Shown here piece by piece: positions 14,401-54,159 of a stretch of DNA of 64,000 bases (position 1 is its first letter; each line of letters opens with the position of its first letter). The translations under genes were made by a program, and so were the position numbers. Origin of the DNA: Allodiplogaster sudhausi (Eukaryota > Nematoda > Chromadorea > Rhabditida > Diplogasteridae); contig CALZFC010000080.1 in assembly GCA_945643635.1 (NCBI GenBank), forward strand, positions 799,501 to 863,500. The letters run 5' to 3'. The notes below the pieces were generated by a model. That model was not told the DNA's origin, searched no databases, and saw nothing but the letters and a program-made list of their open reading frames with translations.

Positions 14401-15197
14401 CACTGGTTTGTCAAAAACTATTTGAATTTTTTATGGACTATTAATTTTTTTACGACATTCGCTAATACCTACTGAACGGACAAAATGTTTAGTTTTCATG
14501 CATATTTTTCTTCAAATATGCAGTGAGCCAATTAGTATTAATCATATTCGAAGTTGAACTAATTAAAATGGTTTACTGAGCTCTGGAAATTAGATTTTAA
14601 CAATTTGTGTACACTTTGAACATCGTTGTCAAATTTGATCCACAACCCAGACTTGCTAAAAGTGATGTTTTGCTGGAGTCTGCATTTCGAAAACGCTTTT
14701 GGTTATTTCTAATGATTGTCCTTATTTCATCCCTGGCTTTATGCATGGAAAACCAAATGTTATAGGCCAGTACTGCACCAAAAGTTGTCTTGACACCGCA
14801 CACAATTTATTTTTCAGCAGCGACACTCGGGACAGAGTGCCCCTCAACAAGCGAGTGCTCGAGCATTCAAAAGGAGCGGGATCAGTTGCTCCTTCTACTC
14901 GCCCAGGTCACGTCCATGGATCCGCATGCCTTCGCTGAGGCTAAGCAATTTCTTCTCGCGCGACACGGGCAGGTTGGCATTTTTGTGTTTTCCATTCTTA
15001 TTCGGAATGAAGTAAAAACCCTCTAAAAGGAGGTGGACAATATTTTCCTGGACATTTCAAAAAAAAATAATTTATTTCAAGTGGCTCTTTTTGTAACGTC
15101 GTCCTCTATGTCCAATGCACTTTAAAATCCGACTTCCTAATTCATATCCATCACGTTTATCCTTCATTTCTAACAGGCATACGAAGCAGCACCTTGA
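1..15197 (+). CDS. Giant tandem-repeat protein, 3' part (start lies left of the window)
   Basis: I do not recognise this protein. The frame is open from position 2 to 14405 (4801 codons), and no ATG occurs in the units, so the start lies upstream. Each 20-residue unit has four Thr, one Ser, two Pro, four acidic and no basic or Cys residues. This suggests a long, strongly acidic, probably disordered and possibly O-glycosylated (mucin-like) chain. A GTTTGT donor after 14405 joins a TTTTCAG acceptor at 14818. The phase fits, and the joined sequence begins with a degenerate repeat (ATLGTECPST against DTLGTGLPDV), which supports the splice. Exon 2 (14818-14972) adds two Cys and a Leu-rich helical stretch (QKERDQLLLLLAQV). 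Exon 3 (15177-15197, acceptor TAACAG) encodes AYEAAP and a TGA stop. About 4860 residues lie in the window. A structural or surface protein is only a guess. Confidence 0.8.
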
Positions 15198-16621: not shown

Positions 16622-16630
16622 TATAAAAGG
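16622..16630 (+). promoter_or_regulatory. TATA-box-like site in duplicated unit, copy 1
   Basis: TATAAAAGG is a strong TATA match followed by GC-richer sequence. No convincing reading frame follows on the plus strand, so this may be a promoter of a non-coding transcript or chance. Confidence 0.35.
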
Positions 16631-18287
16631 CGCAATCTCCGGTCTTGGCTTCCAAAAATTTAAAAAAATATATATTTTGCGTTTATGCATATTGATTGAT
16701 CAGAAAGTGAACCAAAATACATATTGATTGATCAGAAAGTGAACCAAAATACATTTTGCAAAAAATGGTTCGATTCTCTTAAAATTCAGATAACCAAGTC
16801 TACATTACTTTTTTATAAACTTTTATTTAGGGATATATATATATACATATGTACATATATATAATAACATTTACAGTTCTGTTGGATGTCATTTTGACAT
16901 GAATACATTGAGTCTTAAAGTGCCGTATTCATGCATTATTATTCTCTAATTATCATGTGCTCCTCGTATAGAATGATCTCAGTTTCTATTGGGTTGTCTC
17001 GTTGATATGTTTTCCTTTCTTCATCGGAGATTGAGTAAATCACTCTCCTTATTCCTCGATTACCGTCTATTAAAAGTGAGTAGCAATTTGGACTACTTTG
17101 TTTTATCCTTCAGCCATGTCCAGCTGTTTGATCAGAACATCCCAGTGAACATTCGCATAGTCTATTTGTTATGTACTTTGAGAATATCAGGGAACCTAAA
17201 TATTAATATATTCTGTTTTTTATCAACCTCTGTGCAATTTCCAGTTATCCGAAATCGGTGCGTCGCGGAATTTATCTTAGTATGTACAGCCGCAACACTG
17301 TTTGGATCATGCTTTCTTAATAATAATAATTTTTGTTATTATATTTCCAACTCATGTGCCTGGGAAGCATGAATAACTATAATACTTTAAATTATAACTT
17401 AATGTATATGTACACAGTACATTCAAAATCAACCTGTTTGGTCAGGAGAATGGCAGCCGCCGAGCTTTTCAAAGTAAGAATACTATACATTTCAGTGTCT
17501 TGTATGTACAATGGAACGTCTTGGACATGTCCTTGTCTGTGTCCTCGAGTTACAATAATTGTGCGAATGCTGTCTTTTAACAGTAAAATCGGTGGACAAA
17601 TTTTCTCATATGGGCAAATTCGGCAATCAAACATCGTTTCCGACATCAATTTGTAATGGCTGATCTTGGATAAAATAATTTTAACCTGATATTAGATATG
17701 AACACGTGAAACATTGCACAATACTGTAGGAGTCGAATGCTAGTAATAATCTGACCCTATCAGTATTCGAGCATGTTTTCACACCCTCTCTTTCTCTCTA
17801 TGATTCTTTATCTCTTTCTATCACTCTGTCTTTCTGGCTCTCTCGCTCGCTCTATCTCCATTGCACACCTTGCTCTTTTCTATGACAAAATAGGCACCGC
17901 CTCTCACCACCTCAACGAGACTTTCCTCTCCAATGGAACGTTTCTGTCTGTTTATCCGAGCGTGTGTAGGAGAACGAGAAAGTTTCAGTGCGCTTTCTTC
18001 ATCTCGCAACACATCCGGATCAAGGCAGAGTGTAAGATACAGACATATTATATGGCCGAACGTCAACTGCTTGGCGCGGTACGAGTGGGAAAGAAAGAGT
18101 GAGAGACAGTAGACAAGATACTCTCGCCGCCTGAGTGATTCTCGCCAAAGGATTGCTCCGTAAGGGATAAAGAAGGTGGAGATTGGCCCACCGATCCTGT
18201 TCCACTTCATCGCCCATTTCAAATTCCTTTTGAATACCAGCTTAAGCCCGTCTTTGAGTCCTGTCCAACCCCTGAAGTCCACAATCA

Positions 18288-18296
18288 TATAAAAGG
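18288..18296 (+). promoter_or_regulatory. TATA-box-like site in duplicated unit, copy 2
   Basis: Same TATAAAAGG as in copy 1, exactly 1666 bp further on. In copy 2 the sequence downstream runs into partial copy 3 and then into unique DNA from 18747. Confidence 0.35.
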
Positions 18297-18746
18297 CGCA
18301 ATCTCCGGTCTTGGCTTCCAAAAATTTAAAAAAAAATATATTTTGCGTTTATGCATATTGATTGATCAGAAAGTGAACCAAAATACATATTGATTGATCA
18401 GAAAGTGAACCAAAATACATTTTGCAAAAAATGGTTCGATTCTCTTAAAATTCAGATAACCAAGTCTACATTACTTTTTTATAAACTTTTATTTAGGGAT
18501 ATATATATACATATGTACATATATATAATAACATTTACAGTTCTGTTGGATGTCATTTTGACATGAATACATTGAGTCTTAAAGTGCCGTATTCATGCAT
18601 TATTATTCTCTAATTATCATGTGCTCCTCGTATAGAATGATCTCAGTTTCTATTGGGTTGTCTCGTTGATATGTTTTCCTTTCTTCATCGGAGATTGAGT
18701 AAATCACTCTCCTTATTCCTCGATTACCGTCTATTAAAAGTGAGTA

Positions 18747-29286: not shown

Positions 29287-31682
29287 GAGCTCTCTTCAAG
29301 TGCATCTTCCTTTGCGTGCTCTGCTCACTTCACTATACAGGCGAATATACTTTAAACACATTTATATGTTCATTCTTGCGAATTTTCGCATTGACCAATG
29401 TGTGTATATGTTAATAGCTACATCTTTACAAGAGCCGTCGTTTGCTTAGATGCTGTGGTAATCCTCGGAAAAGTGCGTGTATTCGAACAGAGAGACACCT
29501 TTCCTGGCTATAATGTCAGTTTCTTTAAGCAATATTTTCTCATATTAGCCAGAATCAACGAGAATTGTCCTTCCTAATCATTGAAGATGTTTAGGGGACT
29601 CTCAAAAGCTTTTCTTGCTCGAAAGCATGCGCGCTCTATGTTACTGCAAGAGCAAAGACGCCTATGGACTATCTGAAACTTGTGGTTCTCAGCGGCCCGG
29701 GCCAAGGAGACGTTACGTCAGTGTCTTTTTTCTTTTAGAAACATTTCTCCATCTTTGATTTGCTTATTGTTATTATTATTTGTTGTTTGTATATATTTTT
29801 TTAATGTTTTAACAAGAGTTAATGTCAGAATGGCGACGATTATGGAGAAGATTCTCGATAAAAAGACAGGCTACCTTACGCCGTACTCACTGAAGCCAAG
29901 TGTCCTCTACTATCTTGAGGACAAGCATACTTACCCAGACTGGGATTCCAACCCATTTTTCATTTACGTGTTCGAAGGTAATACATATTCATCAACTCAC
30001 GATCAGATTGTATGATATTCTTTTTCGCTCTCCCCCTTTTTCTTGTCCCTTCCCGCTTCATCACTTTTATTGTTCTTATGCAAATGTAAGTATGTGTATG
30101 TACATAGATGCCTCCACCCCTGTCTACAACGCCTTGTACGCGACGACTGCTTCAAGTCAGAAGTCATCTGCCCTCTCTCTCTTGACTGCAGACGATTGCA
30201 TCACTCTTCGTAGCTTCTCGATCAGCTCAGTCAGTAGCTCCTAACAAAACACTTAAAGACGCAAACCAGGGGCCTAAAAAGCAACAGTAATCCTCAAGAA
30301 AAGGATATGCAAGACGAGAGACGCAGACAGTAATTAAAGTGGATTTAAGCTCCATGGACACCCCTTTAAATAAAGTTGTTAAACATACAAACACAAATTT
30401 TAATCCCAAAATACTAGAAATGAATTAAGGGCGGAAGTGCCCGTCTCTGCGTTGGTGGCAGCGATTGCGGCGGTGGAACGAAGAAGCTGGCGCGAGTGAA
30501 GTTTGTGACTATTCAATCCTTTCCCAACCCCGCTTTCTATCCACGTGTTTTGCAGAACTGACAAATTAATATATGTATGTGGGGTTTTTTTTTGCAGAAC
30601 TTACACCTTAAAACATTTCGCCTTCATACTTTAATTAAGCGAAAAGAACGCGGAAAAGAGCGTGATCAAAGTGCTTGCTCCGCTGGTCTCCGTCATTTTC
30701 TCGAGTACCGGCGCAAAGACCGTCGCTGTCAAGGGCACTGAAGGCTGGTCGTATTCATCCATTTATACTAGTTGAAATAGCCATTTCATGACCTTCCTGC
30801 AGGCCTGAACGGCGAGCTCATTTCGGGTGGCCAGGCCGTTGCGACCTCTCCCGGTTACACCGGCATTCCTAACCTTCTGTTTATCCATTCTCTGCAATCC
30901 GAAAAATTCAACGTCACTTTTAAAGTGCGGTCGTTGGTGGAATTGAATAATTAATTTAATTGTGCTAAAGATGATTAAAGTAGTAGTCAATTGCTTATTT
31001 CGAGTCACTATTAAAGTGTTTATTGTCTTGCTCTTAGGCTACTGACGACGTCCTAATGGACATTGACGTGTATTCTGACGAGGAGAGAGGTTCTCTCCTT
31101 GCTTCCGTTTCCGTCGCATCTCATTCTGGCGAAAGGACGTTCGAAAATGAGTGCGATATTATGTTACAGCATACATGAAAAGGAAAACTTGAAAAATGCG
31201 AGGAGTTCCCAAAGATCTAGGACTGCAAGAATCTTTCATATTTGATTACTTGACTACTTTAGTTTGCTTCAGCATCAGAGGCGAGAGTACGGCTGCTTAC
31301 AAGAACCTGCTCGGCTCGACTGGCAAACTGAGATGGAGGCCGTTCGGCTATGGAAACGTCCTCGTCACTTTCACTGCTGCGGGCACGGGTTAGAAGGAAT
31401 CTTGATGGAATTGAAACGTTAAAAGGGGCTCTTTGAGGGAAAGATGAGTGCTCGTTCCTCTCATTTCATGTACTCACCGTAGAAATCAGATTAAAGAAAA
31501 AAACGTGAACGAGAGCGAATTGAAGTGTTACTTTTGAGCTACTAGTAAAATAAATGTTGGTAGCATTCTTCTTTGAGATCAGCCTATGAACATTATTCAT
31601 ATCTATGAATTATGCAGGTGTCTTCTCTTCGTGGAGCAGTTTATGCATGCTTCTCATCGTCTTTTTCTGGATTCAGAAATGA
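29287..31682 (+). CDS. CUB-like secreted/anchored protein, copy A (11 exons seen)
   Basis: Exons: 29287-29340, 29450-29514, 29595-29722, 29829-29977, 30108-30229, 30430-30500, 30661-30743, 30803-30924, 31038-31150, 31273-31388, 31618-31682. Phases agree throughout and match the paralogue at 32.6-35.0 kb. The first exon seen encodes the signal peptide (ALFKCIFLCVLCSLHYT). The initiating exon, probably just ATGG as in copy B, was not located. Conserved with copy B are CSxxCALY, DVTSV, FYVF-like, DDCITL, CxGGSDC, VIKVLAPLVSV and a CUB-like core VATSPGYTG. The last exon is hydrophobic (LCMLLIVFFW), fitting a GPI-anchor signal or membrane tail. About 363 residues are expected. Nematode CUB-like (DUF141-type) proteins have this layout, and some respond to pathogens; this assignment is from pattern memory. 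The introns after 29340 and 30743 start with GC. Confidence 0.75.
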
Positions 31683-32622: not shown

Positions 32623-33235
32623 ATGGGTTAGTCGAATGCGGAATTTCTTCCTATTTCAACTATATCGGCCTTATTCAGGAATCCTCGGATGCTGCCTGTG
32701 GGCTCTTCTGTTCTTAGCACACCTCTCACGTCAGTTCATTGAAGCTAATTTCTGACAAAAAAGAATGTCTCTTATAGAAGCCCTGGTGACCATTGGAAAC
32801 GTGCGCGTATTTGACTACTTCGAACTCAAGCCTGAAAGTCCAACGGTTTCTTTTGTTATTTAAATTAGAAAAGTTAAAAAAAAATACATATTTAATATCA
32901 TATATATAAATAGAAGATTGTACATGTACCAACTTTTTATATTGATCCATGCATTTATTGCAAATCCAACTACTTATTATGACATGTATGCACATATGTA
33001 GGTATGTATGTATGTACATCCATACGTGCATAGTATGTACATAAATGGTCCACGATCGAGGTGAAATTCACATGCTCTAACAAATGCGCCCTTTATTTCG
33101 CGGCGAGAGAAAACACTCCTCGGGAATATTTGAGGCAGATCATTTTCAACGATAACACTGCGAGAGACGTAACGTCAGTGTACATCATGGCAAGAACATT
33201 TATATTTAAGCTTATTATTCATTAGTTGATAATTG

Positions 33236-33279
<44 letters not shown>

Positions 33280-35024
33280 CAATTTTGCGTTTGTTAATCA
33301 GGATGGAAGAAATCGTGGACAAGTATCTTTATAACGAGACCGGGTTTCTTTCGCCATACTTTCTCTATTCGAATTCGAAATACTCTCTGACAAACAATAA
33401 TAATCAAGTCAGCGTGAATCATCCGTTCTATGTCTTCATTTTTGACGGTCAGTTTTTGAGTTTTCTCGTTCTCTTCCTTTCTCAGTCAATCGCTCGCTTT
33501 CTCAACAGACCTTGAAGTGACCACCATCTCCGTGTATCATGCTTTCTACGCCTCCACCGCCTCTGCTAATTCGGGTGCAGTTAGTATCGTATCCGCCGAA
33601 GATTGCATCACTCTCCATAACTTCGTCATTAGTGAAGTCAGTCAGTGCATACCACCCCTCAATCTGAATAGAAATCGATCACGAGGAACTTCTCACACGA
33701 GTAAGATCAAGAACTCCATGGTAGACTCCACTGAGAGATGAAGAGAGATCATTCGAAATGCACAGATACTAGCGTGGTGTTCACATTGCGTTGTGTTGAG
33801 GGTGGCACTGCCCTCGTCTGTGCTGGAGGGAGCGACTGCAACGAGGACCTGCAAGGGATCGTCGTTATCGAGTTTGACTTATTTCAGTCATTATGTATAT
33901 CCATGTATATCTTACCGTAATCAATTCATTAATTCAATCTATAAATTTAACTTACCATAGCGTTGTATTTTACATCTAAAATACTATAATATACATATGC
34001 AAAAACATAGTATGTACATACATTTGTACATATTTATAAGTAGCTCCAAATTTCCATTCGTTATTATTGTCGGTCTGCTTTTCAAGAAGAAGGAATTCGG
34101 CAAGTAGCGTGATCAAGGTGCTGGCGCCGTTGGTTTCAGTCCGTTTCTCAAAGAATCTGCCACAGCTTGTCAGCGTCGATGGGAAACAAGGCGAGAAGTT
34201 GTCCCTTCGCTCAGTCAACCTTGAAAACTCTCTTGAATTCTCTGCTATTTTATCTCTAGATAACAATTTCAAAAACTAAATCAAAACTAAATTACAGTAG
34301 TTTTAAGATCAATCGATTTTCAGGGCTGAAGGGCGTGCTAAATGCCGACGGTCTAGCGGTTGCCACGTCTCCGGGATACGCCGGAAACTCCGATTTTCGC
34401 CTCAACCATTATCTCCGCGACCTTCACATCAACGTTACCTTTACTGTTAGTTGATTGTTCTTGATCGCGTTCTTTCCTGTTCTGTGGTATACTTTTGATG
34501 GAATCGTCCAGGCAAGCAGCGACCTCAGCATTGATGTCGCAATGCATTCCTACGATACGGGCAGTGGCCGAATCGCTTCCGTTTCTGTCTCGAGAACTTC
34601 TGGGGAGATGAGCCTCAAGGAATAGTATGTTATTTTCGAAAAGAATGATTTTTTATTACTCAGTTTTGTGTAAAAGTGTTATCTCAATCTACTGTGTGCT
34701 CGACTTGAGCATCTCTGGCACTGCCTCTCAAGCCTATAAGAGTGTGCTCGGCTCGGAAGCCCGCCTCGAGTGGAAACCGGCCACGGCCAGTGCCTTCGCA
34801 CACGGAAACGTCCTTGTCAGCTTCAGGGTCTCCTCTGGGACTGGTCAGACTCAATTCAACTATAAAAGAAATTTGCAAAACAAATCATTTCATTAACAAT
34901 GAATGTTCTATATTCATAAAATGTGAAACCAGTTAAATTTTGAGTCGTTTCAGGTAGGACTTTCACGGCTTCCTCGTTTAGTTTGCTTCTATACATTATC
35001 GTCACTATGTTCTGGATAAAATAA
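32623..35024 (+). CDS. CUB-like secreted/anchored protein, copy B (12 exons)
   Basis: Exons: 32623-32626 (ATGG only), 32679-32729, 32778-32845, 33061-33179 (start uncertain), 33302-33447, 33509-33636, 33801-33871, 34108-34190, 34324-34445, 34512-34624, 34710-34843, 34954-35024; about 369 residues. The signal peptide MGILGCCLWALLFLAHLSQA is followed by an N-terminal region with the same Cys pattern as copy A (CSNKCALY, EDCITL, CAGGSDC), then VIKVLAPLVSV and the CUB-like core VATSPGYAG. It ends in a hydrophobic tail (FSLLLYIIVTMFW) expected for a GPI signal or a single membrane segment. Four internal exons have exactly the same length as in copy A (71, 83, 122, 113 bp), so the pair is a tandem duplication. 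One intron (34191-34323) begins with GC. AATAAA lies 11 bp after the stop. Confidence 0.8.
33239..33278. repeat. (TA)n microsatellite in an intron
   Basis: About 20 TA dinucleotides within the intron preceding the exon at 33302 of CUB-like copy B. Confidence 0.95.
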
Positions 35025-40735: not shown

Positions 40736-40769
40736 ATTATGAAGTGCTAAACGTTCATCTTCCTTGTTG

Positions 40770-40990
40770 TGCAAATGTCACTGAACAGTTAGCAGGTGGA
40801 TTTAATTATCTGTTTACTGCGACTTAGCCAGTTCTTCTGACTGTGTTAGAACATTTCACATTCGGATCGAGTTGGTTCGTCTCAAAATGGCCTCTTTGCA
40901 TTCTCTCCTGAACTCAACCGCCCTCCTCAAGGTGCCATCTCCATCTCAATCTCCTTCTCCTCCTCTTTAGTAGCTGTATTTCATGTATAC
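40770..40990 (+). repeat. Left arm of ~220-bp inverted repeat flanking the kelch locus
   Basis: This segment recurs in reverse orientation at 50225-50451 with only scattered substitutions and a few small indels (about 90-95% identity by eye). Both arms include a start codon followed by the same short frame (MASLHSLLNSTALL, then K or R, VPSPS). Homology continues more weakly into the adjoining pyrimidine-rich stretch. Confidence 0.9.
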
Positions 40991-40994
40991 CTCT

Positions 40995-41445
40995 CTCTCC
41001 CTCTCTTTCCTTCTCTCGCTCGCTCTTTTCTCTGTCTATCATTCTCTATCTTCGCTTTCTCTTATCTTTATCTTCTCTCTCTCTATTTCTCTCTAGAATA
41101 TGTATCTCTCTCCTTTCTCGTTATTTTCACTCTTTCTTCTCTTTATCTTTTCTCTCTCTTCTCTATCTCTTCTCTCGCTCTCTTTCCCTCTCTCTCTCGC
41201 TCTTTTCTCTCCATATCTCCCTTTATCTTCGCTTCCCCTTATTTTTATCTTCTCTCTCTATGTCTCGTTTCTATATCTTCTCTCTCCCTTCTCTTGATAT
41301 TCGCTCTATCTTCTCTCTATCTTCTCTCTCTTCTCTCTACTTTCTCTCTCTCTCTCTATCTTATCTCTCTCTTCTCTCTACCTTCCCTCTGTTTTTCTTC
41401 TCTCTCTTCTCTCTTCTCTCTGTCCCTCTCTCTTTCCTATGTAAC
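40995..41445. repeat. Long CT-rich low-complexity tract
   Basis: About 450 bp of TCTCTCT with TTATCTT and CCTT interruptions, ending shortly before the ATG of the kelch gene. Frames across it give Ser/Leu/Phe-rich translations and are not genes. Confidence 0.9.
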
Positions 41446-41461: not shown

Positions 41462-41869
41462 ATGACAGAGCCTCGTTGTCACAATGACCCCGTAGCGCAA
41501 GCCATCACGCGCATCGTTGCGGGTCTGTCGTTCTTTTTTCTCTTGCTTTCTCTCATTTGTTGGGTCCAACGAAAACTTTTTCTTTCCATCTCTCTCTCTA
41601 TCTCTCAACTAAATATAATTTCGAAGATCTGGGCTTGCCTTACTCGTTTCTCGTCTACGGAAACATCGCCTTGCTAAGCTTCTCTGGTTCGCAGGTGTTT
41701 GTCGACCTCGTCTCTGCTCGGTTTGTCTGTATTATTTCTTTATTTAGTTAAGAACTATACTGCATATATTGTTTGATTATTTTAGAAAGTGATTCTTTTG
41801 TTAAATTTCATTATTTTTTTCCCAGGCGGATGAACTTCAAATTCAGCCACTTTGACGCCATGGCCATTA
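41462..41869 (+). CDS. BACK/kelch-type gene, 5' part (exons 1-3a), cut by transposon
   Basis: Exon 1 (41462-41522) starts MTEPRCHNDPVAQAITRIVA right after a CTTCCAG acceptor. Exon 2 (41627-41720) reads DLGLPYSFLVYGNIALLSFS then GSQVFVDLVSA. Exon 3 starts at 41826 (MNFKFSHFDAMAI) and runs without a splice site into the inverted end of the element at 41870, where a stop appears after seven foreign residues (THKKECS). Leaving out the element with one TA restores the frame into the sequence at 46847 (RELALINHYICERAV). The combined segment resembles the BACK domain found between BTB and kelch domains of KLHL proteins. No BTB domain was found upstream. Confidence 0.65.
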
Positions 41870-41996
41870 CACACAAAAAAGAATGTTCGTAACATTCAAT
41901 TCTCGGGTTGAATGTTTTTTTTGATGTCCTGCTGAGAAGGACATTCAAACCGACCCGAGCAGGACATTCCCCCCTGGCAGCGCTCCTGGCGCTTCT

Positions 41997-42104
41997 GGCG
42001 CGGAATGTCCTGCTGACCTCGGTTGGAATCTCCTGCTGACCTCGGTTGGAATGTCCTGCTGAGCAGCACATTGTCGCACTCGGTTGGAATGTCCTGTTGA
42101 CAGT
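41997..42104 (+). repeat. Subterminal repeats of the element
   Basis: Four copies of a module around CGGTTGGAATGTCCTGCTGA follow one another, one with ATCTCC and one with CTGTTGA. Related GAATGTCCTGCTCAG modules lie near the opposite end (46684-46824). Such repeats are typical transposase-binding subterminal arrays. Confidence 0.8.
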
Positions 42105-42110
42105 GAAGTA

Positions 42111-42172
42111 GCGATCACGTCCGATCTGGCAAGTTAAGCAACGTCGAGCAGCGACACTTGGAGGTTCAAACC
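42111..42172 (+). pseudogene. 5S-rRNA-like fragment inside the element
   Basis: GCGATCACGT is followed by CCGATCTGGCAAGTTAAGCA, ACGTCGAG, and after a short gap ACTTGG. The AAGTTAAGCAACGTCG core is the box A internal promoter of 5S rRNA genes, and CTGGCA before it is how I remember nematode 5S. The 5' third and 3' third of a 5S gene are missing. The next bases GGTTCAAACCC match a tRNA B box, so this may be a pol III promoter module of a SINE-like sequence. Confidence 0.65.
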
Positions 42173-42302
42173 CACATGTGGTCAATGTTTTGCATAGAGA
42201 CAGAGTGGAGAGAGAGAGAGGAAAAGAGAGTTTTATATGTATATTCGGTCTCTTTGTAGTGTTCACATAAAAAGTGAGAGAGCTGTCATGGTAATGAAAC
42301 TG

Positions 42303-42365
42303 TTATTAGAATGAGAGAGAGAGAGAGACAGAGAGAGAGAGAAAGAGAAAGACAGAGACGGACAG
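42303..42365. repeat. GA-rich tract
   Basis: Interrupted GAGA/GACA run inside the element. Confidence 0.9.
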
Positions 42366-42644
42366 AGACAAAGACAACGAGACCACTTATACTATCCCAA
42401 TGCCACAAATGTCTGTCTGCACGAAAGTCTAACATTTGTTGTCTGAATGTCTGACTCCTGGTTGCCTACGTGCACTTCTAGAGACAACAAAAGCATGCAA
42501 CAAAATGTTAGGCCGGCTGTTCGCGCTGCTTCCCCTCGACCGCAACGCGTACAGCTTCCCCGCCAGTGCTCGCTCCGTACACGTTTATGGTCTTTCGTTT
42601 ACATGTGCATCCAGAGACAAATTAGATATATCTCTCCCTCTTTG

Positions 42645-42750
42645 TCTCTCTCTCTCTCTCTCTCTCTGTCTCTGTGTGTGTATGTCTGTCTCTCTCTCTC
42701 TCTCTCTCTGTCTCTGTGTCTGTCTGTCTCTCTCTCTCTCACTCTCTCAT
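42645..42750. repeat. CT/GT-rich tract
   Basis: TCTCTCTC runs with TGTCTGTGTG interruptions inside the element. Confidence 0.9.
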
Positions 42751-42751
42751 T

Positions 42752-42861
42752 CTAATAGCTGCTAATCGATAGCAAAGACGACTGCAGTTTCATCTCTAAC
42801 ACTCTCTTCATTCTTATTAATAATAGCAAATCCATCCTTGGTATCGATTCGCAGCTATTAG
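42752..42861. repeat. 20-bp inverted repeat with 70-nt spacer
   Basis: CTAATAGCTGCTAATCGATA at 42752 and its reverse complement with one mismatch at 42842. It lies inside the element, and the spacer contains a second ATAGCAAA. Confidence 0.85.
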
Positions 42862-43016
42862 ATTGAAGAGAGCCGAAACATATAGAGTATGTACACCCTC
42901 CGGCAGGACTAACAGGCAGCAAATTCATTCCTGTTTTAAACAACCGAACAGACACTATCGGATAACAATAGCATAACAAATACGGTGCGAGAGAGAGTAG
43001 TAAGGGTAGTCCGGGG

Positions 43017-43137
43017 AACTCAACGAACTCGGACTCTCCATCTGTGCCAAGTTGGCTAAGAGCCAAAAGGTTTTTTCGAGAGTTTTACTGCTCAACGTGA
43101 CTTATGTTGCTTATGTTGCGTCTCTCTCTATCTTACC
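43017..43137 (-). repeat. Inner inverted repeat of the element, left copy
   Basis: The reverse complement of this ~120-bp stretch (with GCCAAAAGG, TTTTTTCGAGAGTTTTACTG and CTCAACGT) matches 46021-46132 closely, apart from a 10-bp insertion and a few changes. Confidence 0.85.
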
Positions 43138-43141
43138 TGTG

Positions 43142-43143
<2 letters not shown>

Positions 43144-43194
<51 letters not shown>

Positions 43195-43290
43195 AGAGAG
43201 AGAGAGGAGAGAGGGAGAGAGAGGAAAGGGAGAGAGGGAAAGAAACAAGAATGAAAGAAAGAAAGAGGGAGAGAACAGGAGAAAGCATGT
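43144..43290. repeat. GA-rich microsatellite
   Basis: Starts with about 22 GA dinucleotides, then degenerates into GGAGAGAGGGA and AAAGAAAGA. Confidence 0.95.
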
Positions 43291-43328
43291 ACAACTCAAT
43301 TAATCTTTTTGGCACGCTGCCAAAATTT

Positions 43329-43862
43329 GTAAGTTTTGTGTATCTTTTGCTGTGAACACTATAAAGAGACCTCTCTCTCTCTATGTCATGACATTCTGCC
43401 CAGAAAGGCGGTTCTAATGAGGTACAGAGAGATGTGTAAAGGTCACGTTGAGCGTTGTTCTTACACTTACAAGTTTGCGCACAAGAGCGAGGAACACCGC
43501 CAACTCCTGACATTCACTTATAAAGAGAAAGAGAGAGAGAATAGAGAGAGAGAGAGAGACAGTCAGACAGACAGAGAGAAGGAGAGAGAGAGAAGGAGAG
43601 AGGGAGCGAAACACCGATATTGAGAGAGAGAGATTGATAATTGAGCGCAGAAAAGACTGTCTGTGAGATCTGTGAGTTTTTGTGTTTCTATTGCTGTGAA
43701 CGCTATAAAGAGACGGAAAGGTGACTCTCTCTATGTCATTAGATTCTACACAGAAAGGCAGTTCTAATGAGGTACAGAGAGATGCGGATAAGTAACGTTG
43801 AGCGTTTTGATTACACTTACAAGTTTGCGCACAGAGCGAGGCACACGGCCAACTCCTGACAT
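43329..43862 (+). repeat. Diverged direct repeat, two copies
   Basis: Copies at 43329-43512 and 43671-43862 share GCTGTGAAC, CTATAAAGAGAC, TTCTAATGAGGTACAGAGAG, TTACACTTACAAGTTTGCGC and CAACTCCTGACAT, with substitutions and small indels (roughly 80-85% identity by eye). A GA tract lies between them. Confidence 0.85.
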
Positions 43863-44421
43863 CATGAACAGTGTTCACGGCGGGTCAAGGCGGACATTGG
43901 AGATTTTTTAGTGTTACCGTACGAATTATGAGAAAAACGCGGTTACGGTACCAAGCTGCACTAATAAAGAGTTGTCATGCGTGTAATAAGCAGTCTTGAT
44001 ATTTTCTTTTAATTGGTTCTTTCGATATAGTTGCTATAAACGGAAAATATTTTTATTGTAACCGGCCGGCAGCAACGTGCAGGCTACCGACGTCGGACGT
44101 CCTACTACCGACGTCCGATGAAGCATGCGAGCAATCTCCACTTCTTTGTCAGATTAGATCAGTAATTTTAACATATTAGCTTTGTAATCTCGTGTGTGCT
44201 GGTTGCTTGTGGTTTATTTCCAGCTCCATCATCTACGTTGTTCTCTGGCGACTGAAGTTTCGAGGCTCATGATGGAACAATCAGAACGGTGAGCTTGGAT
44301 AATTTTCCTCCTTATTTGTCTTTCCTTTGCTCTGTTAAATGCGCGCTTCTTTATTCTTAATTCATATCTCTTTAATTGTGGCCCTAAAGAGGGCCGTTGG
44401 GTTCTGGGTTTAGAAATAGTC

Positions 44422-44709
44422 CTAGTCGTAGAAATAGAGGGTTGCAGCCTCGACACTGAAGTGATTGGCAATTGCTCGCCACCGTCTCTCCTTGCTTCTG
44501 ATGCAGGCGTACTGCCGATCATATTTCTTAAAAGCAGCGTGTAGAGACTCAATTCCCTGCTCACTCATAGCCCCCCAGCTACCATATTGGGACATGAAGG
44601 GGACCACGTGCTCAAGAAGCAAGTGCATCTTGGGAGTTCGCGAGATTGTGCCATTCTCCAGCTTTGCACAGACATTCTCAAATCTAGTCAAGATGAATTG
44701 GAGTGAATC
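44422..44709 (-). pseudogene. Transposon-type protein fragment (HVVPF..SEQGIESLH)
   Basis: On the minus strand a 95-codon open frame reads DSLQFILTRFENVCAKLENG, then PKMHLLLEHVVPF, YGSWGAMSEQGIESLHAAF and YACIRSKERRW, and stops after YFYD. I recall this signature (P-K-x-H-x-L, HVVPF, SEQGxESxH) from uncharacterised, probably transposon-derived proteins common in nematodes and some other animals. A TAA lies immediately upstream and no start is visible, so this is a fragment. An overlapping frame continues downstream as a basic stretch (RIKKRAFNRAKERQIRRK) to a stop at 44229, which may be its frameshifted C-terminus. Confidence 0.6.
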
Positions 44710-45020
44710 TTATTAAAAACACAACCGGATGAATACTGCACGAGATCGGAACGACGAGATAACAAAACAACGACGGCGCGTAATTGGGAGAAAAAGGGAG
44801 AGTGTGAATTGAACAGCAAAAGGGCTCAGGCACCTGTGAAAGAGGGAGTGAAAGAAAGTGAGCGTATTTGAGAGAGAGGGGACGGGAGCAGACAAAAAAA
44901 GGTGGACATGGATTCTTTCAAGAACGATAAAGAGAGAGAAAGAGAGAGAGGGCCGAGTCGCGAGTGAGTGATAAAGAGAGAGAAAAAGAGAAAGAGAGAG
45001 AGAAAGAAAGAGGGGACGCA

Positions 45021-45649
45021 TCAGTTGGTCTCCTTCTGGTTGTCGCTCTGGGCATTCAACGACTCCGCCGCCTTCTCCGTAGCCTTCTCCACCTCGTCCC
45101 TCAGAGTCTTCACATTCTGACGGAGCTCCTCCTTCTCCTCCTTCATTTCCTTCTTATCCTTCTTTAGGTCAGCCACGTCCTGCTTAAGCGCCTCCTTCAG
45201 CTTCACGAGCTCGTCTCGTTCCGTCTTCATCCTCTTCACAGCTGACTTCAGCTGTAAGGAATTAAATGACGCTAACATGTTAATCGAGTAAAACACAATC
45301 GAGTAAAGAACCTCATTTATCTGGCCCTCCAAACGGTCTCGCTCTTCCTTCGCTCTACGAGCACGTCCATCCTCCCTCTCAGCTCTATGCCAGGCCGACT
45401 CCGCGCGAGGATTCGCATTTCTAACAATAAGGAAATGTGTGTTTTTCAAGAGAAAAACCAACGACCACACTCATTTCAAACCTGTGTCATTTCAAACCTG
45501 TTGTTGTTGTTGTTGCTGCGTCCTCTGCCTCCTCCACGGATGTATCCGCCGCCACCATAAGTCGGCTGCACTGGCTGCTGCAGCACCGGCTGCTGAATCA
45601 CCGGCTGCTGCAGCAGAGGCGGAAGCTGTCCATACGGAAACCCGAACAT
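45021..45649 (-). CDS. 163-residue Pro/Gln-RGG coiled-coil protein inside the element
   Basis: Exons run 45649-45498, 45420-45312 and 45251-45021, with agreeing phases and donors GTTTGA and GTTCTT. The start lies 4 nt after TTTTTTTCAG, a trans-splice-like site. Residues 1-30 are Pro/Gln-rich with a repeated QQPV motif. Residues 31-51 are Gly/Arg/Asn-rich (YIRGGGRGRS, then five Asn). From about residue 57 to 150 there is a charged coiled coil (ERDELVKLKEALKQDVADLK and so on), ending DNQKETN. It reads as an intact gene. It may be element cargo, an accessory transposition protein or a captured host gene. Intron 1 begins with two CAG/GTTTGA donors 16 nt apart; use of the second would shift the frame. 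Confidence 0.75.
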
Positions 45650-46020
45650 CTGACTGAAAAAAATAAACACGCCTTAGGGAAAATTAACACTAATCAATGC
45701 AAGAACAAACAAAAAAACATCTCAGCGTCTTTAATTTCGATATTACCGAAGTTTCCCACACTTTTGTTTTTAAAATGCAGTGTTCTCGACAAGAATTATA
45801 CCGTACTTTTTAAAAACTACGTACTCTTCACAAGAAGTTGTTCGTACGGTAGCGTCCTTGCAATTTTTTTTGGCAAGCTTCCAAGTTTCTCTAATGTCCG
45901 CATTTCTAAAGGCCTAACCCACCGTGTGTTCACATATTTGATATATACGGATGAGGTCCAGAACTACTTTTACACAACATTAAATAGCTCAAAAGAACCG
46001 CCTTTTTCTGTAGTAAAATG

Positions 46021-46132
46021 TAGGATAGAGAGAGACGCAACATAAGATACGTTGAGCAGTAAAACTCTCGAAAAAAACCTTTTGGCTCTAAGCAAAATTA
46101 TCACAGATGGAGAGACCGAGTTCGTAGAGTTT
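46021..46132 (+). repeat. Inner inverted repeat of the element, right copy
   Basis: Matches the reverse complement of 43017-43137, including GTTGAGCAGTAAAACTCTCG and CCTTTTGGCTCT. Together with the 20-bp ends it suggests long, interrupted terminal inverted repeats. Confidence 0.85.
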
Positions 46133-46544
46133 TCTCTCTCTCTCTCCCTTTCTCTCTCTCTTTTACTCTGTCTCTTTCCTTTTTCTGTCTCTCTCTCTCT
46201 CCATTCTTTTCTCAACGTTCTCTATGGGCGCCGCCCTTTTCTTCTGGATAAGTTCTTCAACATTCAGATCGCGGGGCGGGTAGTGTGGTGGTAGTGGTTT
46301 GGGTGCGGGGTGCGCGGGGTGGTGGTTCGGGTACGGGCGGTCAGTTCCAATTCCAGATACAACGACGACGGCACCAACACGACTCTACAAACCAGGTTAG
46401 CCAGTTTTTCAACTTTTGCAGCTTTTGTTCTCACGTTTTACCTACAGTTTAAACTGTTTTATAGCGAAAACGACAATAATAGCTGCAAAAGACGATTAAC
46501 TGGCTAGTTTGTGGGCCGTGTTTGAGATTCCTGATAGCAAAGAG

Positions 46545-46583
46545 GGAGAGAGAGAGTGAGAGAGAAAAAGAGAGAGAAGAGAA

Positions 46584-46622
<39 letters not shown>
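46545..46622. repeat. GA-rich microsatellite
   Basis: GAGA run with a few A insertions near the right end of the element. Confidence 0.95.
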
Positions 46623-46623
<1 letters not shown>

Positions 46624-46679
46624 ACGCAAACAGAATGATGGGGAGGCGCTCCTCCCCCCCCTATGCTCGCGAGAAGCGA

Positions 46680-46844
46680 GCGGGGAATGTCCTGCTCAGC
46701 ACTACATTGCCGCAGGACATTGGTGATCCGCTCAGCGGAACATCTGAATGTCCTGCTCAGCGAGTGATTAATGTTCCGGAAGCGATTGATAGCATTAATG
46801 TTCCGCTTGAATGTCCTGCTCAGCCGAACATTCTTCTTTGTGTG
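46680..46844 (-). repeat. Right terminal region of the element
   Basis: In reverse orientation it begins with the 20-bp inverted end and carries three or four GAGCAGGACATTC modules alternating with GGAACATT modules. It is the counterpart of 41870-42104. Confidence 0.75.
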
Positions 46845-46846
46845 TA

Positions 46847-49615
46847 GGGAACTCGCTCTAATTAACCACTACATATGCGAGCGTGCCGTTTTAGGTCTAT
46901 TATTCTTTATTTTTTATCTAGTTAATTTTTTTTACTATTTGGCTGAAGCGAAATATAAAAAAAACACTTTTCCTAAATCGAACTTATTTTTGGGTAATCT
47001 TTGTTAACTCAGTTTCTCTATCTCTCTCTCTCACTCTCTCTCTCTCTCTTTTCCTTTCTCTCCCTCAGTTTCGTTTTTTTCTCTATTTTATTGTTCTCTC
47101 CTTTCTTTCTCGAATTTGGTCTCTTTTGGTTTGTTTGATGCTTTTGACTTCATTTTAAGGCGATGGTCGCTTGCCCGATGATCCCATTGATGGCTATTTT
47201 CGCCAGTTCGTTCCAACTCTAGCAGTACGACAACCCTTTTTTGTTTATTGTAATACCGCCTTTTGCAAAGCACAAAGATTCAGTTTTGTAAATGTCTCTG
47301 CGAAAAGAAAAATTCATATACATACAAGATAACAAATATAAAATGGCGTTGATAAATTACAGGGGGCATTCATTTTCAAAGCTACGCACCATGACGACTT
47401 CTTCTTCTTTCTCAACTACGAGGCTAAAACGCTGCATAAAGTCAAGTCCAACTTTCGAGCAGGGTATGTATTAGATATCAAATAAAAACATTATCATGAG
47501 GAAATTGTATATTCATAAAAGTATATTGTAATCTGCATTTCTACTGTTCTATGTCCTTTATTTACTCGAAATGTGAGATACTTTTCCTGTTTACAATATA
47601 AGAATCTCTGAACATGGCCTGCCGCCTGGATTCGTCCAGATCTTTGGTACCGAACTGGCGTCAGTCAAAATGCAGAGGACGGTAATTTTGGCTCTTTTTT
47701 AAATTTATTAAGGGGAATAAAAATAAATGTTTTGGGAAGAAAATTTAAAACAACTGTTTATAAAAGCTGAATATATATAATGTATATGTATATATATAAG
47801 CATGCGCAAAAATTCATATTTGTGATCTGCAGGAGAAGTCAGCTGACATTCAGGACGTTATAGTTTTCTGTGGTGGCCATTTATTGATGGAAGAAGAAGA
47901 CGATAATATGGTTTAAAAAATTTACTTTATTATATTTATTAATTATACAATTTGTTTTACAGAAAATGATTGTATTAATTAAGTTTACTTCTTAATATTT
48001 CTTTTCAAGCATCGCCTAAAATGGTCTGGCGTGCCCTTCGATAATCTTCACATTTTCGACATCAACCGTGAGATATTCGAACGTTGGCAGACACTTCCGG
48101 ACCCGGTCAGCAATTCATACTTTATCATAATATATAAAAGGTAGCTCATGGCGAATTAATTTTTTGAAAAAAAAACCTTTTAATGAAAGTGATTTATATT
48201 TTTATTTTTATGTAGACCCACGGCTTTCCTGCGACGCGCGTAGACGCTTCTCCAGTGATCGTCGCCAAGAAGTGGCTGTTCGTGATTGGAGGATACTTAT
48301 TGTTAGCCGGTGCAAGCTGCGCTGACGAGCTCTGCCGATTCGTCTGGCGACTCGACATTGCATCATCCACATGGCAACGCGTCTTTCAGCTACCGTCAGC
48401 CGTTATTTTCAAAGGAGCAGGAAATCAAACTTAAATCTGTTTGAAGTATCCTAATAATTGTAAATCACATGCTTCCTCGCCCTTTTGTTAAAGGAAAAGA
48501 CGTGCAAATTCAAGCATGAGTTTATTGGCTCCTTTCAAGTCATACATTTATTTTTATCGACGTTGTATAAAAACTCGAAGGTTTTATCATCTATACATTT
48601 ATAAGAAATGGTCTAAAATTTGTAATAGGTTTTTATTTATTTTTTATTTACTTCTTGATTTGTTTTTTTTTTTAAATTATTTTAGCGATGTGTCCGTTGT
48701 CACTTCCGCTGCGTACTGCCGATTGTCGGGTCGTCTTCTCGTCTCAATGAGAGTAAATCACTTAAAAAATAATTTCTTTATAATTTAATTTCGCAAAACA
48801 AAACATTACTTAATAAAAGTGTTTAAAAATTATAAATATGATGAAAATTCTTTTTTTTTTCTGTGGTTTCACAAACAATGGAAATAAAATGTCTAAGGAA
48901 ATGAAAATATTTATGTGATAGTGATAATCAGTTGATTAATAAGTAATTTCTTAAAGGACGACCAGCATGATCGAGATCAAATGAAGATGGTCCGTGTCGC
49001 GGTGCCCTTCCTTAGCGTTCATGTCGTTCAGCAAGGTTTGCATTTTTTCTCTATGCAAATTTGCGCCACTTTTGGGAAATTTGAATGAAATATGGCTGAG
49101 TCTATTAATTCAAATATTAGAGGAGGTATCCGACGAAAAAAGATACTTGTTCTTTTATATTCCAATATATTTACACTCTTCTTTTCGATGCTGCAGTAAA
49201 CACCTCTGTCGATGCACCCGGTGCGTGATCAAAATCAAGCAAGGAGTGTCAATGGATGGGAAACCTCTCCTACCCAAATAACACTCCATTTTCACCAAAG
49301 GATAAGAGATAGGAATGTCAGCGAAAAGCGAAAACTATGCAAAAGCTTGAGAGAGTTTAGCAGTATATGCATCTTGAATTCTAAGAATTTTCTCGTGCGA
49401 AACAAAAAGTTCTTCATTCTCATCCATCGCTTAATTTACGATACTCTGCCTTGTGAATTAATTTTCAATAAAAAAAGTCTAATCAGGTTCAGAGCCTCCT
49501 GAAGCAAGAGATCCTCGCAGTTGTCCATGCGAGGTTCGGCTTTGGCGTTCCTGTGCCATCGGTCAACGTCGCCGAGGCAACGAGTCGAATCATGGACATT
49601 CTCTTCGCGGATTAA
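46847..49615 (+). CDS. BACK/kelch-type gene, 3' part (exons 3b to last)
   Basis: Exons: 46847-46894 (rest of exon 3), 47160-47287, 47363-47463, 47603-47681, 47833-47910, 48010-48105, 48216-48394, 48686-48752, 48957-49035 and 49487-49615. Phases agree except at the last junction, where an unseen exon or an earlier donor (near 49027) is needed. GYFRQFVPTLAVRQPFF fits the end of a BACK domain. Kelch-type blades follow: DVIVFCGGH, then FDNLHIFDINREIFERWQTL; WLFVIGGYLLLAG, then WRLDIASSTWQRVFQLP; then SVVTSAAYCRLSGRLLVSM. The paired glycines and spaced Trp are the kelch pattern. With the 5' part the protein would have about 390 residues. KLHL-type proteins commonly act as adaptors of cullin-3 ubiquitin ligases, but no BTB domain was seen here. 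Confidence 0.75.
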
Positions 49616-51044
49616 CATGAATTCCTTTAAAACTTTAATATTGCAACAGCCTTATGTCGTCTCATTTTCTTTATGTTCTTCCAAATAATTTTTGCCGCAT
49701 GTGATTTCCGCCATGAACGAAGATCTTTGCGATCTCTCTCTCTCTCAATCACCTAATAATAATCTGTACCGTTTCACAAGACGATAAAAAACTTGGGAAC
49801 TCTTCTGAAAAGTAATTTTTATTTCTTTTTCGGGCTCAATGTTGTACTCTTGGGTGACTATAGTATCCTTCCTAACCCATTGGCGTCCCGGTTGACAGGA
49901 GCGAGTAGTCGGTGACTATTTCCAGAGGCATCTTCGAACCGTTCTCGGGTTGATCCCGCCACGATAGTCTCTGGACTACGGTAATCAGTGATGTAGCTAG
50001 TTGACAGCTGAAGAGCCCAATACGGTTTTCGTAGCTATGAGGAAGACAAGAGGCTCTCCCTTAGCCTTGGAAGAGAGAGATAGAAAGACATAGAGGTACC
50101 GAGAGACAAGCAGAGAGAAGTTAGAGAGAATATAAAGATTAGAGAAAGCGAAGATAAAGAGAGATAGGGAGAGAAAAGAGCGAGAGATGTAAAGAGAGGA
50201 AGAGAGAGAGGACATTCCAACGAAGTATACATGAAATACAGCGACTAAAGAGGAAGAGGAGAAGAAGGAGAATGAGATGGAGATGGCACCCTGAGGAGGG
50301 CGGTTGAGTTCAGGAGAGAATGCAGAGAGGCCATGTTGAGACGAACCAACTCGATCCGAATGTGAAATGTTCTAACGCAGTCAGAATAGCTGGGTAAGTC
50401 GCAGTAAACAGATAATTAAATCCACCTGCTAACTGTTTAGTGACATTTGCATAAGATCCTTTCTTTTACATTATTTATTTATTTTGCGTAGATTTATTGC
50501 GGCGATTACTACGATACATAACACGTCGAGGGCTCCAGAGGCCTTTAAGGGGTGGACAGAGAGACAGTTGGGGTTAGGTTAGGCTGCCGGCTCTCAGGCA
50601 CTCTCTCTTGGTACATATGAATCTCTTCCATCGCTTAAATGTCTCATGGCCGTTGCAAGAATGCGTCACGGATCAGAAAGTAGCCATTACTATGAGTCAA
50701 GGAATTGTAGCCCCCTTCAATGCAATAGATCTCCGTGCGTTCTATCAGAACATTGGCCCATAATAAGTATAAGCATCTATATGCTAATTAAAAAGCACTA
50801 TTTGAAAACAACGACGCTGCGGATACCTTCTCACTCTTCTCATCCATGCCCTTCGCGAGCAGTCGACTCCGCCAAGAGTGAAATAGGCTAGCGACTTCGT
50901 ATTGTATTTTGCAAGCGTGGAATAAATCTTTTTCCAAAAAGTTTGCAATTGAAAAGAGTCATTTAGCTTCCTGAAAGATATCTTTAAACGATTAAAACTA
51001 CATAAAATATTTAGACTTGGTAATTCTTTTCAGATTTGCCGAAC
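49616..51044. other. Intergenic region with GA tract and inverted-repeat arm
   Basis: Holds a GA-rich tract (50055-50215), the right arm of the inverted repeat (50225-50451) and a short TTAGGTTAGGC at 50574. Several CT/GA-rich frames are open but not coding in character. No gene was seen. Confidence 0.4.
50225..50451 (-). repeat. Right arm of ~220-bp inverted repeat flanking the kelch locus
   Basis: Reverse complement of 40770-40990 with substitutions and small indels. The short frame is retained as MASLHSLLNSTALLRVPSPS. The neighbouring bases include TTGGAATGTCCT, the same motif as in the subterminal repeats of the element at 42.0 kb. Confidence 0.9.
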
Positions 51045-51630: not shown

Positions 51631-54159
51631 GAAGTCGTGCGCGCCAAAGAAATGGTGGTTCACGCGCCGTCGGAAGAAGAGACGGCGGGCCCGATTCAGG
51701 ATACGACGGTAGAAAATAAAGAAATTTGATTGAAGTTATAAATAAAAGTGCCATCATAGATAATAATGATTAATGTCGAGTGGTTGGCAAGAATTTTTTC
51801 AAGAAGTATGAGCGATATATAAAGAAATTCCACAAAATATTCCAAAAAAAAAGAATTCAGCATTAATTTCAAGGGGCAAGTCAGCGGAGGGTACTACATG
51901 CTCGGCGACTTTATGCCCGGCGCCATGCCGGTAGGTTTTGTATCTTCAAACTAAATTATAAACAAAAACATTTATGTACTAGAATTGCTTTTTTTGTCAA
52001 ATTTTGCTTTTTTGTTCTTTTTTTTCAGAATGAGAAAGCTCCGGCGCCGGATGAGAAGCCAAAGGAAGAAAAGGAGATGGCAGCGAAGAACAAGAACAGC
52101 GGAAGCCACGCGGTCGACAAGAAGCGACCAGAGGTGCCAAAGTGGCCGGCCAGGCCCGCTTGGACGGCTGGCCCAATTTTCCAGGGCCCGGGGAAGAAAT
52201 GTTTGGCTTGCCTGTGGCCCTGTTGGGCCCAAAAGTATATATAGTAATAGGTACCTCACAATCAAATCAAAATTGGACCTGGTCGGGAAATAAGGCTCGA
52301 TGGGCCGGACAGGCCCAAAATATTTTAGCCCAGTAGCACCTCTGGAAACGTGTGAGTTGGGCGCTAGTTACAGTGTTTTTTTAACACGTTTAAATTGCGG
52401 CTTTTATAACTGAGAAAATTCTGGTGACAAAAATAATCGTTAAAGACATTGCTTTTTTGACCCAAAGTGCCAGAATTCAGTTGCACTTTTGGCGAAATTT
52501 GCAAAAACTATAAAATAGCTGTCATTTTTTATTCTTTCGGTTTTTTTTTCAGAATCAAAAAGCGCCGACCCTGAACAAAAGCGAACCGGTTGAGAAGCCA
52601 AAAGAAGAAAAGGAGAACGCAGCGAAGAACAAGGACAGCGGAAGGCACGCGGTCGACAAGAAGCGACCAGAGGTGCAAAGTGGCTGGCCGGACCAATCAT
52701 TCAGGGGCCTGGCTGGTTGGGACGGGTCCAATGTTTTAACCCTTCAGCACACTGGAAGCGAGCGAATCGGCCGCTAGATACAACACTTTTTAGCGAGTGG
52801 AAACTGAATTTTGAATTGCCACTCTTATTATTAAGAAAACTCTGGTACCAAATACAATCGTTAAGAAATTGCTTTCTGTTGTCCCGAAAGTACATATAAA
52901 TATGTTTCGGTGCTTTAAACTAAATTACATGTAGAAAATAAAATTAAAAATAAAAATTATATATACCTACTATCATTCAATTTATTTTTTTAGGAAATTT
53001 GTTGAAACTATAAAATACCTCGCATTTTTTATTCTTTCGGTTTTTTTTCAGAATGAAAAAGCTCCGACGTTGAACAAAAGCGAGCCGGTTGAGAATCCAA
53101 AAGAAGAAAAGGAGAAGGCAGCGAAGAGCAAGGACAGCGGAAGCCACGCGGTAGACAAGAAGAGAGCAGAGGTACATACAAGGTGGCCGGCTCGGCCCGA
53201 TGGGCCGCCTTCCTGGGCCTGCCAGGGCGGGCGGGACGAGCCCAATGTTTGGGCCTTTTAGCACACTGGAAGAGAGCCAATCGGTCGCTAGATACAACAC
53301 TTTAGCGAGTGGAAACTGAATTTGAATTGCCGCTCTGATAATTAAAAATGTGCCTTGTACCAAATACAATCGTCAGAAATTTTTTAACCATTATAACCGT
53401 CCATCTCCTTCAGGGACGCAAAAAGGAGAGCAGCGGCGCGCCAGCGAAGCAATCTGCCGATCGGCCAACACCAAGCTCAGAGTTCGCCAGATTTCTTTCT
53501 CTCTCCCTCTCTCTGCTCTCTCTCTCTCTTTCTCTGTCTTCCCTCTGTCCATCTCCCTGTCTTCTGTATCCTTTGTTTTAGTTTCTAGAAATAAAATGTA
53601 ATCATTTCAAATAATAAAATATGTTTTTATAAGAAAAAAAAATTGCCTGTTTAGAGCGCGGCCACGAACAAAGGGCACGAGAAAGAATTCGGAGTCGAAA
53701 TCGAAGTCGAACCCGTCGGATCCGCCCGACTTGACCACCGTCACGGCGTATGCGCCAAGTCAGGCGGAGAGTTGTAATAATCTTGAATAAATTAAGTGGC
53801 TAGCCTAGAAGCAGCCTTCTCACTACGGCCTATGCTCAAAACATATATTTTAATTTTATTTCACTAAATTCATTCTGAGCAACATAAAAATGACTAAATA
53901 AATTTTTTAAATGTAGGAAGTCCTTTTCGAGAGATAAACAACTAAGACAATTTTGTCAATAAAAAAATTGTAATCTACCAACACTCGTTTACATCACAGA
54001 AATCTTAGAATCGCCTTAGTCTTGAAATTACCTTTGTTCAGGGTATAATAAGAAGTTTACTCGATTTGAAGAAAAAAAAGTAAAAAAAGTCGTGCCCTTG
54101 CAGACCAAGTCGTTGCTCCCAAGAAGAAGGCAAAGAAAAAGGGATGCGTTGTGGCGTAA
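51631..54159 (+). CDS. Lys/Glu-rich protein with triplicated exon and C-terminal CaaX box
   Basis: Exons in agreeing phase: 51631-51708, 51874-51930, 52029-52133, 52553-52672, 53052-53171, 53414-53481, 53655-53770, 54104-54159. The first ATG is at 51652 (MVVHAPSEEETAGPIQDTT), giving 232 residues; an upstream exon is possible. Exons 3-5 are tandem duplicates of 35-40 residues (NxKAP, KPKEEKE, AAKNKDSGRHAVDKKRPE type). Their introns are duplicated too. The protein is charged and likely disordered. The last exon ends in APKKKAKKKGCVVA, then the stop. CVVA is a CaaX prenylation motif preceded by a polybasic stretch, the arrangement that targets small GTPases such as K-Ras to the plasma membrane. 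No catalytic domain is visible. Confidence 0.75.
52029..53413 (+). repeat. Tandem exon-plus-intron triplication
   Basis: Units at 52029-52552, 52553-53051 and 53052-53413 each contain one Lys/Glu-rich exon and the following intron. Introns 2 and 3 share CACACTGGAAG, GCTAGATACAACACTTT and GAGTGGAAACTGAAT. Intron 1 is more diverged. Exons 4 and 5 are the most similar pair, so the duplication happened in at least two steps. Confidence 0.85.

Follow-up and report, generated by a model that had tools for sequence, protein, structure and literature searches.

A probable CACTA/EnSpm-like insertion with a nested Chapaev-like element in a kelch-family exon of Allodiplogaster sudhausi

How did the third exon of a kelch-family gene copy in the nematode Allodiplogaster sudhausi come to be split by almost 5 kb of foreign DNA, and what became of the gene? 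The gene copy occupies 41462..49615 on the forward strand of the 64,000-nucleotide stretch C80:799501-863500 (contig CALZFC010000080.1), which is called the window here and supplies the positions used below. The intruding DNA, termed the outer element, lies at 41870..46844 and itself contains a second transposon, the nested element, at 43876..45926. The explanation that we consider quite probable is a recent CACTA/EnSpm-like insertion in exon 3 that carries a nested Chapaev-like element and likely truncates the product. The coding exon of one kelch-family copy was recently entered by a cut-and-paste DNA transposon that has short inverted repeats and in which no transposase was found, most likely moved by a transposase supplied in trans. 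Its insertion made a 2-bp target duplication that is TA by chance. The same element copy also contains an internally deleted Chapaev-like transposon, flanked by a 4-bp duplication of its own. The window gene copy would have lost its function as a result. Such an insertion is an ordinary kind of event, datable here with the empty site kept in paralogs. What makes the locus worth following up is a conserved hairpin on the Chapaev-like transposons.

The split exon and its gene copy

Exon 3 of the host gene is divided into 41826-41869 and 46847-46894, and the outer element between the two parts is bordered by the left and right copies of a TA target duplication (41868..41869 and 46845..46846). When the element and one TA are removed, the frame joins as ...FDAMAI-RELALINHYICE..., and the later exons up to 48752 follow in frame with GT-AG borders. 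The original prediction, made from the letters of the window alone, was that a transposon splits coding exon 3, with the host frame entering it at 41869, resuming at 46847 and staying intact across the site, and with the next splice phase fitting; its coordinates and frame prove accurate to the base. It also named evidence that would overturn it, either a relative without the junction or flanks from two unrelated genes. Instead, two close paralogs, C45 (L009/L032) and C59 (L012/L030), run through the predicted empty site. A query taken from the left junction matches these two places in its gene part only, and the match ends at the TA. The empty site in both paralogs reads GCCATGGC[T/A]ATTAGGGAGG, which equals the window flanks once the element and one TA are taken out, plus nearby base changes expected between paralogs. 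Four distant paralogs (L033-L036, about 70% identical) can also be aligned through the site and have no large insert there, the letters at the joint not being conserved. In BLAST, the alignment of L031 covers the right side of the site only and L037-L040 align in pieces, none of which spans it. That the flanks are two unrelated genes, or that the region is misassembled around the element, retains next to no probability: nothing was found in its favour, and alignments of the two paralogs extend over both flanks, which come to about 4 kb and are separated there by a single TA.

The host frame reads seven codons into the element (THKKECS) before a TAA stop, which makes a truncated product most likely, and the allele is likely disrupted. 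The gene could still work if the element were spliced from the message as an intron. Scored with a matrix built from 10 introns of the host gene, the right end of the element plus target reads TTTGTGTGTAG|G and reaches 5.8 bits, near the weakest true acceptor (range 6.1-13.0 bits), and the frame is preserved when this acceptor is joined to the exon 2 donor or to the in-frame donor at 41889. We rate splicing out as unlikely because the only in-frame donor inside the element has a score of -0.3, far below the 3.7-9.2 of the donors that belong to the gene. The gene copy would moreover still be frameshifted near its end.

The remaining exons of the host gene, with borders common to the two paralogs, lie on the forward strand at 41695-41720 (exon 2), 47160-47224, 47363-47463, 47603-47681, 47833-47910, 48010-48105, 48216-48394, 48686-48752, 48957-49035 and 49487-49615. 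An uncertain first exon (41462-41522) is out of phase with exon 2, so the 5' end of the model is uncertain. A 287-residue protein model without the first and last exons matches Kelch_4 with an expectation value (E) of 5e-6 and 26.8 bits, above the Pfam cut-off of 21.6. At E up to 5, a range in which HMMER filters discard most matches weaker than about 0.1, the families listed for it are all of the kelch type, with no BTB or BACK among them. The gene had been called BACK/kelch; the kelch part of that name holds and the BACK part finds no support, so that this model groups with kelch-repeat proteins rather than with the BTB-BACK-kelch type. The family is large, with at least 75 genome matches to the host gene (40 of 128 first-look candidates scored). 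When 5.8 billion proteins were searched for relatives of the host protein, 774 candidates came up, none of them at E up to 1. An inverted repeat of about 330 bp (40767-41094 and 50112-50454), 85% identical over all and 95% over its first 201 bases, surrounds the gene, and its left arm is also found next to both close paralogs.

Was the gene a working one when it was hit? The window copy carries a second lesion besides the element: exon 48957-49035 differs by one base in length from the same exon in C45 and C59, which leaves the last exon out of frame. The empty allele may therefore not have been intact. The C59 paralog has an intact frame of 327 residues from exon 2 to the stop, and C45 is disrupted by a 19-bp insertion. 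Compared with C59, the window copy has a ratio of nonsynonymous to synonymous substitution (dN/dS) of 0.635, and compared with C45 one of 0.772, while that of C45 to C59 is 0.661; constraint on the host gene copies is weak, and the allele was possibly not a working gene at the time. It has close to an even chance that the copy was already dying and that the insertion was one neutral hit in a pseudogene. The frameshift, the dN/dS values and the broken C45 all suit this account, as does the finding that C45 and C59 are no more alike in exons (96.1%) than in introns (97.0%). Against it, the window copy is closer to C59 in exons (92.5% identical) than in introns (89.3%, a difference of 10.7%), the frame holds in its other exons, starting with exon 2, and the one-base frameshift is possibly an assembly error.

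Family and age of the outer element

The outer element is 4,975 bp long, or 2,920 bp when the nested insert and one copy of its target duplication are not counted. Its terminal inverted repeats (TIRs) of 20 bp, at 41870..41889 on the forward and 46825..46844 on the reverse strand, are identical at 19 of 20 positions and read CACACAAA, which has only CAC in common with CACTA. Inside them lie subterminal repeats of the GAATGTCCTGCT type, found in both orientations with up to one substitution, at 41932..42100 on the left and 46684..46823 on the right. The GAATGTCCTGCT motifs themselves stand at 42003-42087 and 46685-46809, and further ones in reverse orientation at 41935 and 41958. Such motifs inside both ends are a mark of CACTA/EnSpm transposons. 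Close to its left end the element also shows a weak likeness to 5S rRNA (42079-42198; 20 bits, E 2.6).

The TIR pattern, allowing up to one mismatch, has 90 matches in the genome and none for its reversed control; about 26 pairs were counted among these matches by eye. Twelve other copies, read with both ends and 2.1-3.4 kb long, were compared with the window copy. This set leaves out L013 and L027 (right end outside the stretch read), L026 (about 0.3 kb, altered ends) and partial second copies in L017 and L019. Matching 2-bp flanks are present in 11 of the 12 copies (AA, TA, TC, TG, TC, TA, AA, CA, AG, TG, TA), while L020 is irregular, off by two bases. With duplications this varied the element is not a strict TA element, and it fits CACTA-like transposons, for which a 2- or 3-bp duplication of free sequence is the test; such a duplication is found in the window copy too. 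The original prediction took the TA as a specific target, and this finds no support. A Tc1/mariner-type transposon is accordingly a very improbable identity: TA flanks the window copy and three of the 12 others, but eight carry matching dinucleotides other than TA, and a six-frame scan of the element lists no Tc1/mariner family at E up to 0.5.

The outer element can be classed as CACTA/EnSpm-like because it combines short inverted repeats starting with CAC and subterminal repeats, and as far as seen it is non-autonomous. Several points weigh against this account. The TIR starts with CACACA and not with CACTA, as in plants, or CCC, as in animal TRC. The outer family, of which the window copy was scanned and the long copies were read in part, yielded no transposase. 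The domain scan, which covered the window copy in six frames, gave nothing above cut-off and no domain of the Transposase_21 or DUF1258 type. DUF1258 (Mirage group), described as mostly nematode in one section of a published account (PMC3985635), is absent from the long outer copies among the 29 matches listed (best 150 of 166 candidates scored). Finally, divergence is the one line of evidence that speaks for the youth of the insertion. Four longer TIR pairs, at C4:343565-352656, C27:1743528-1756142, C90:794743-807728 and C325:71980-83918, span 9.1, 12.6, 13.0 and 11.9 kb, and these 9-13 kb copies may be autonomous and encode a transposase. The 12.6-kb copy contains a gag-type open reading frame (L013:745-2403; Retrotrans_gag 1.2e-6, zinc knuckle 2.2e-6) that is probably part of a nested retroelement.

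For the divergence count, purine- or pyrimidine-rich stretches and gappy columns were left out and 2,261 columns were kept. At 33 of the 2,261 columns the window copy departs from the majority, 12 of these differences being private (0.53%), and the other twelve copies differ from that majority by 0.7% to 10.2%. The jump is estimated to be much younger than the gene duplication because this private divergence of 0.53% compares with an intron difference of 10.7% from C59, and the earlier suggestion of a young insertion is upheld.

The same suggestion had extended to reversion by precise excision, which now looks doubtful. CACTA-like elements are expected to leave a footprint on excision. With such a footprint expected of an element that is not Tc1/mariner-like, and with a further frameshift in the same gene copy relative to two paralogs, precise reversion is unlikely to restore function. 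A clean reversion is possible in principle and is not favoured.

The nested element and its histone-type stem-loop

The insertion had been described as a single element of about 5 kb, which has to be revised: the nested element (43876..45926, reverse strand) has ends CACGGCGGGTC / CACGGTGGGTT and is flanked by the target duplication TGTT at 43872..43875 and 45927..45930. For window 43879-45925, BLAST gives no match of at least 50 bases in the 12 other outer copies, and in L014 and L015 the site has its empty form, AACAGTGTTCACAT, with a single TGTT. Chapaev elements make 4-bp target duplications and have ends beginning with CAC, and both features are seen here at one insertion site. CAC adjoins the matching end in L042, L043 and L044 as it does in the window copy. 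Duplications of 8 bp or 6 bp were considered and dropped because the flanks of L042-L044 assign CAC to the element.

Over 827 columns, the left part of the nested element (43879-44704) shares 99.4% identity with L042. The copy lacks 708 bases that separate the matching parts of L044, and is thus internally deleted. It retains on its reverse strand the last part of a DUF1280 (Chapaev-type) transposase frame, 94 codons plus stop at 44422..44706 (44425-44706 without the stop), and a coiled-coil frame at 45024..45437. The latter is preceded by a stretch at about 45500-45660 that appears by eye to be rich in Q, G and N; the two together are possibly a second protein of the Chapaev-like family. The transposase tail belongs to a transposase-like family that has 112 genome matches and whose open frames reach 1,081 residues. 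Its residues 2-94 are identical to L042, while the DUF1280 part itself is absent from the window copy. The four aligned transposase frames of the family conserve a GD, a C-x2-C pair and a SEQ-x2-ES motif, which we take to fit transposases of the CACTA-Mirage-Chapaev group. DUF1280 (PF06918) is matched by the frames of L042 (4.4e-20), L045 (1.6e-20) and L051 (1e-23); the relevant part of one report assigns this family to Chapaev transposases (PMC3985635), and a passage in another places it in Hydra too (PMC7642931). The link of the window copy to a DUF1280-type transposase runs through L042, and on the features above 43876-45926 is classified as an internally deleted Chapaev-like transposon inside the outer element. 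No relatives of the transposase tail were found among 5.8 billion proteins, and in viral contigs seven pattern matches gave none that was confirmed. The predicted structure of the transposase was of poor quality (mean pLDDT, the predicted local distance difference test, 46) and was not used.

A histone-type 3' stem-loop follows the transposase frame after 25 nt (44356..44400, reverse strand; Rfam Histone3, 32.8 bits, E 2.1e-6). The gathering score of this family, RF00032, is 34, and a scan of the window at Rfam gathering scores gave no match. The hairpin, GGCCCTCTTTAGGGCCAC, stands at the same position in L042-L045 and in the copies L048-L050, which are about 75% identical. RF00032 scores are 37.7 for the L048 type, above gathering, and 33.6 for L051 and L053. 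In L046 a hairpin with G in its loop is visible by eye. Across four subfamilies the mean identity of a 36-nt block is 95%, against 72% in the coding sequence upstream, 26% in the 5' flank and 38% in the 3' flank, with gaps counted as differences. At E up to 1e-3, RF00032 matches at least 60 places in the genome of 351.8 Mb and 382 contigs, eight of them above cut-off (best 75 of 52,322 first-look candidates scored). Among the 60 matches listed, 21 follow a transposase-tail match on their own strand at a distance of 21-34 nt, and 39 lie elsewhere. Conversely, 20 of the best 32 transposase-tail places have such a match. A second histone-type stem-loop (28.5 bits, E 1.4e-4) was noticed at L053:3134-3179, about 1.3 kb past the first on the same strand.

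We propose, tentatively and at slightly less than even odds, that Chapaev-like transposase messages end in this stem-loop and would thus undergo SLBP-dependent, histone-type 3'-end processing, lack a poly(A) tail and be expressed in a manner tied to S phase. Expression would then fall in S phase, when a cut-and-paste element can gain copies by jumping ahead of the replication fork. A selfish element would be using the signal of replication-dependent histone messages, and this would provide a direct mechanism coupling transposition to S phase. A search of the literature at the level of titles and abstract starts found no report of a histone-type hairpin on a transposon.

The competing account, to which we give a somewhat lower but still substantial chance, is that the likeness is a coincidence, or that the block owes its conservation to being coding sequence or transposon DNA and not to a role as an RNA 3' end. 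The open frame of L045 passes through the block, and the stem is invariant in the four subfamilies and so offers no covariation. The loop is CUUU and not UUUA, and AATAAA occurs shortly downstream. The window stem-loop stays below the gathering score, the L046 hairpin has no Rfam match at E up to 0.1, 12 of the best 32 transposase-tail places have no RF00032 match among those listed, and one of 14 control genomes also had a match, below cut-off. A coincidence is harder to square with 21 of the 60 listed matches lying 21-34 nt after the transposase frame, with a block 95% identical next to coding sequence at 72% and flanks both under 40%, and with L048-type stem-loops that exceed the gathering score.

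Other repeats in the window and comparison with known systems

Several further features lie elsewhere in the window. A satellite array with a 60-bp unit fills positions 1-14405, its copies about 98-99% identical over 14.4 kb. It is followed at 15262-18746 by a tandem repeat with a step of 1,666 bp, 99.7% identical over 1,821 bases and with a third copy begun. Direct repeats that are 78-82% identical occur in three places at 51995-53381. The open reading frames at 29677-30015 and 33210-33515 contain short stretches that appear similar by eye, EKILDKKTGYLTPY / EEIVDKYLYNETGFLSPY, and are perhaps paralogous exons.

The systems known elsewhere resemble those of this locus in part. The outer element resembles Tc1/mariner in the TA on both sides of the window copy and departs from it in the flanks of the other copies, eight of 12 with other dinucleotides and one irregular. 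SmTRC1 of Schistosoma mansoni has 2-bp direct repeats at insertion sites in seven of 14 copies, and animal TRC has CCC termini, according to the part of its description consulted (PMC1636069). The outer element shares with such animal CACTA/EnSpm transposons the 2-bp direct repeats and the short inverted repeats; it differs in its CACACA termini and in a window copy without Transposase_21, DUF1258 or detected domains of its own. The nested element is like Chapaev in its DUF1280-family tail, CAC ends and 4-bp duplication, whereas the histone-type stem-loop after the transposase stop and the internal deletion of this copy set it apart. The stem-loop differs from that of histone mRNAs (RF00032) in that it sits on a transposase message, has a loop that begins with C and is followed by AATAAA downstream. 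It shares with them the 6-bp GGCCCU/AGGGCC stem, the 4-nt loop, the ACA after the stem and the position near the stop codon.

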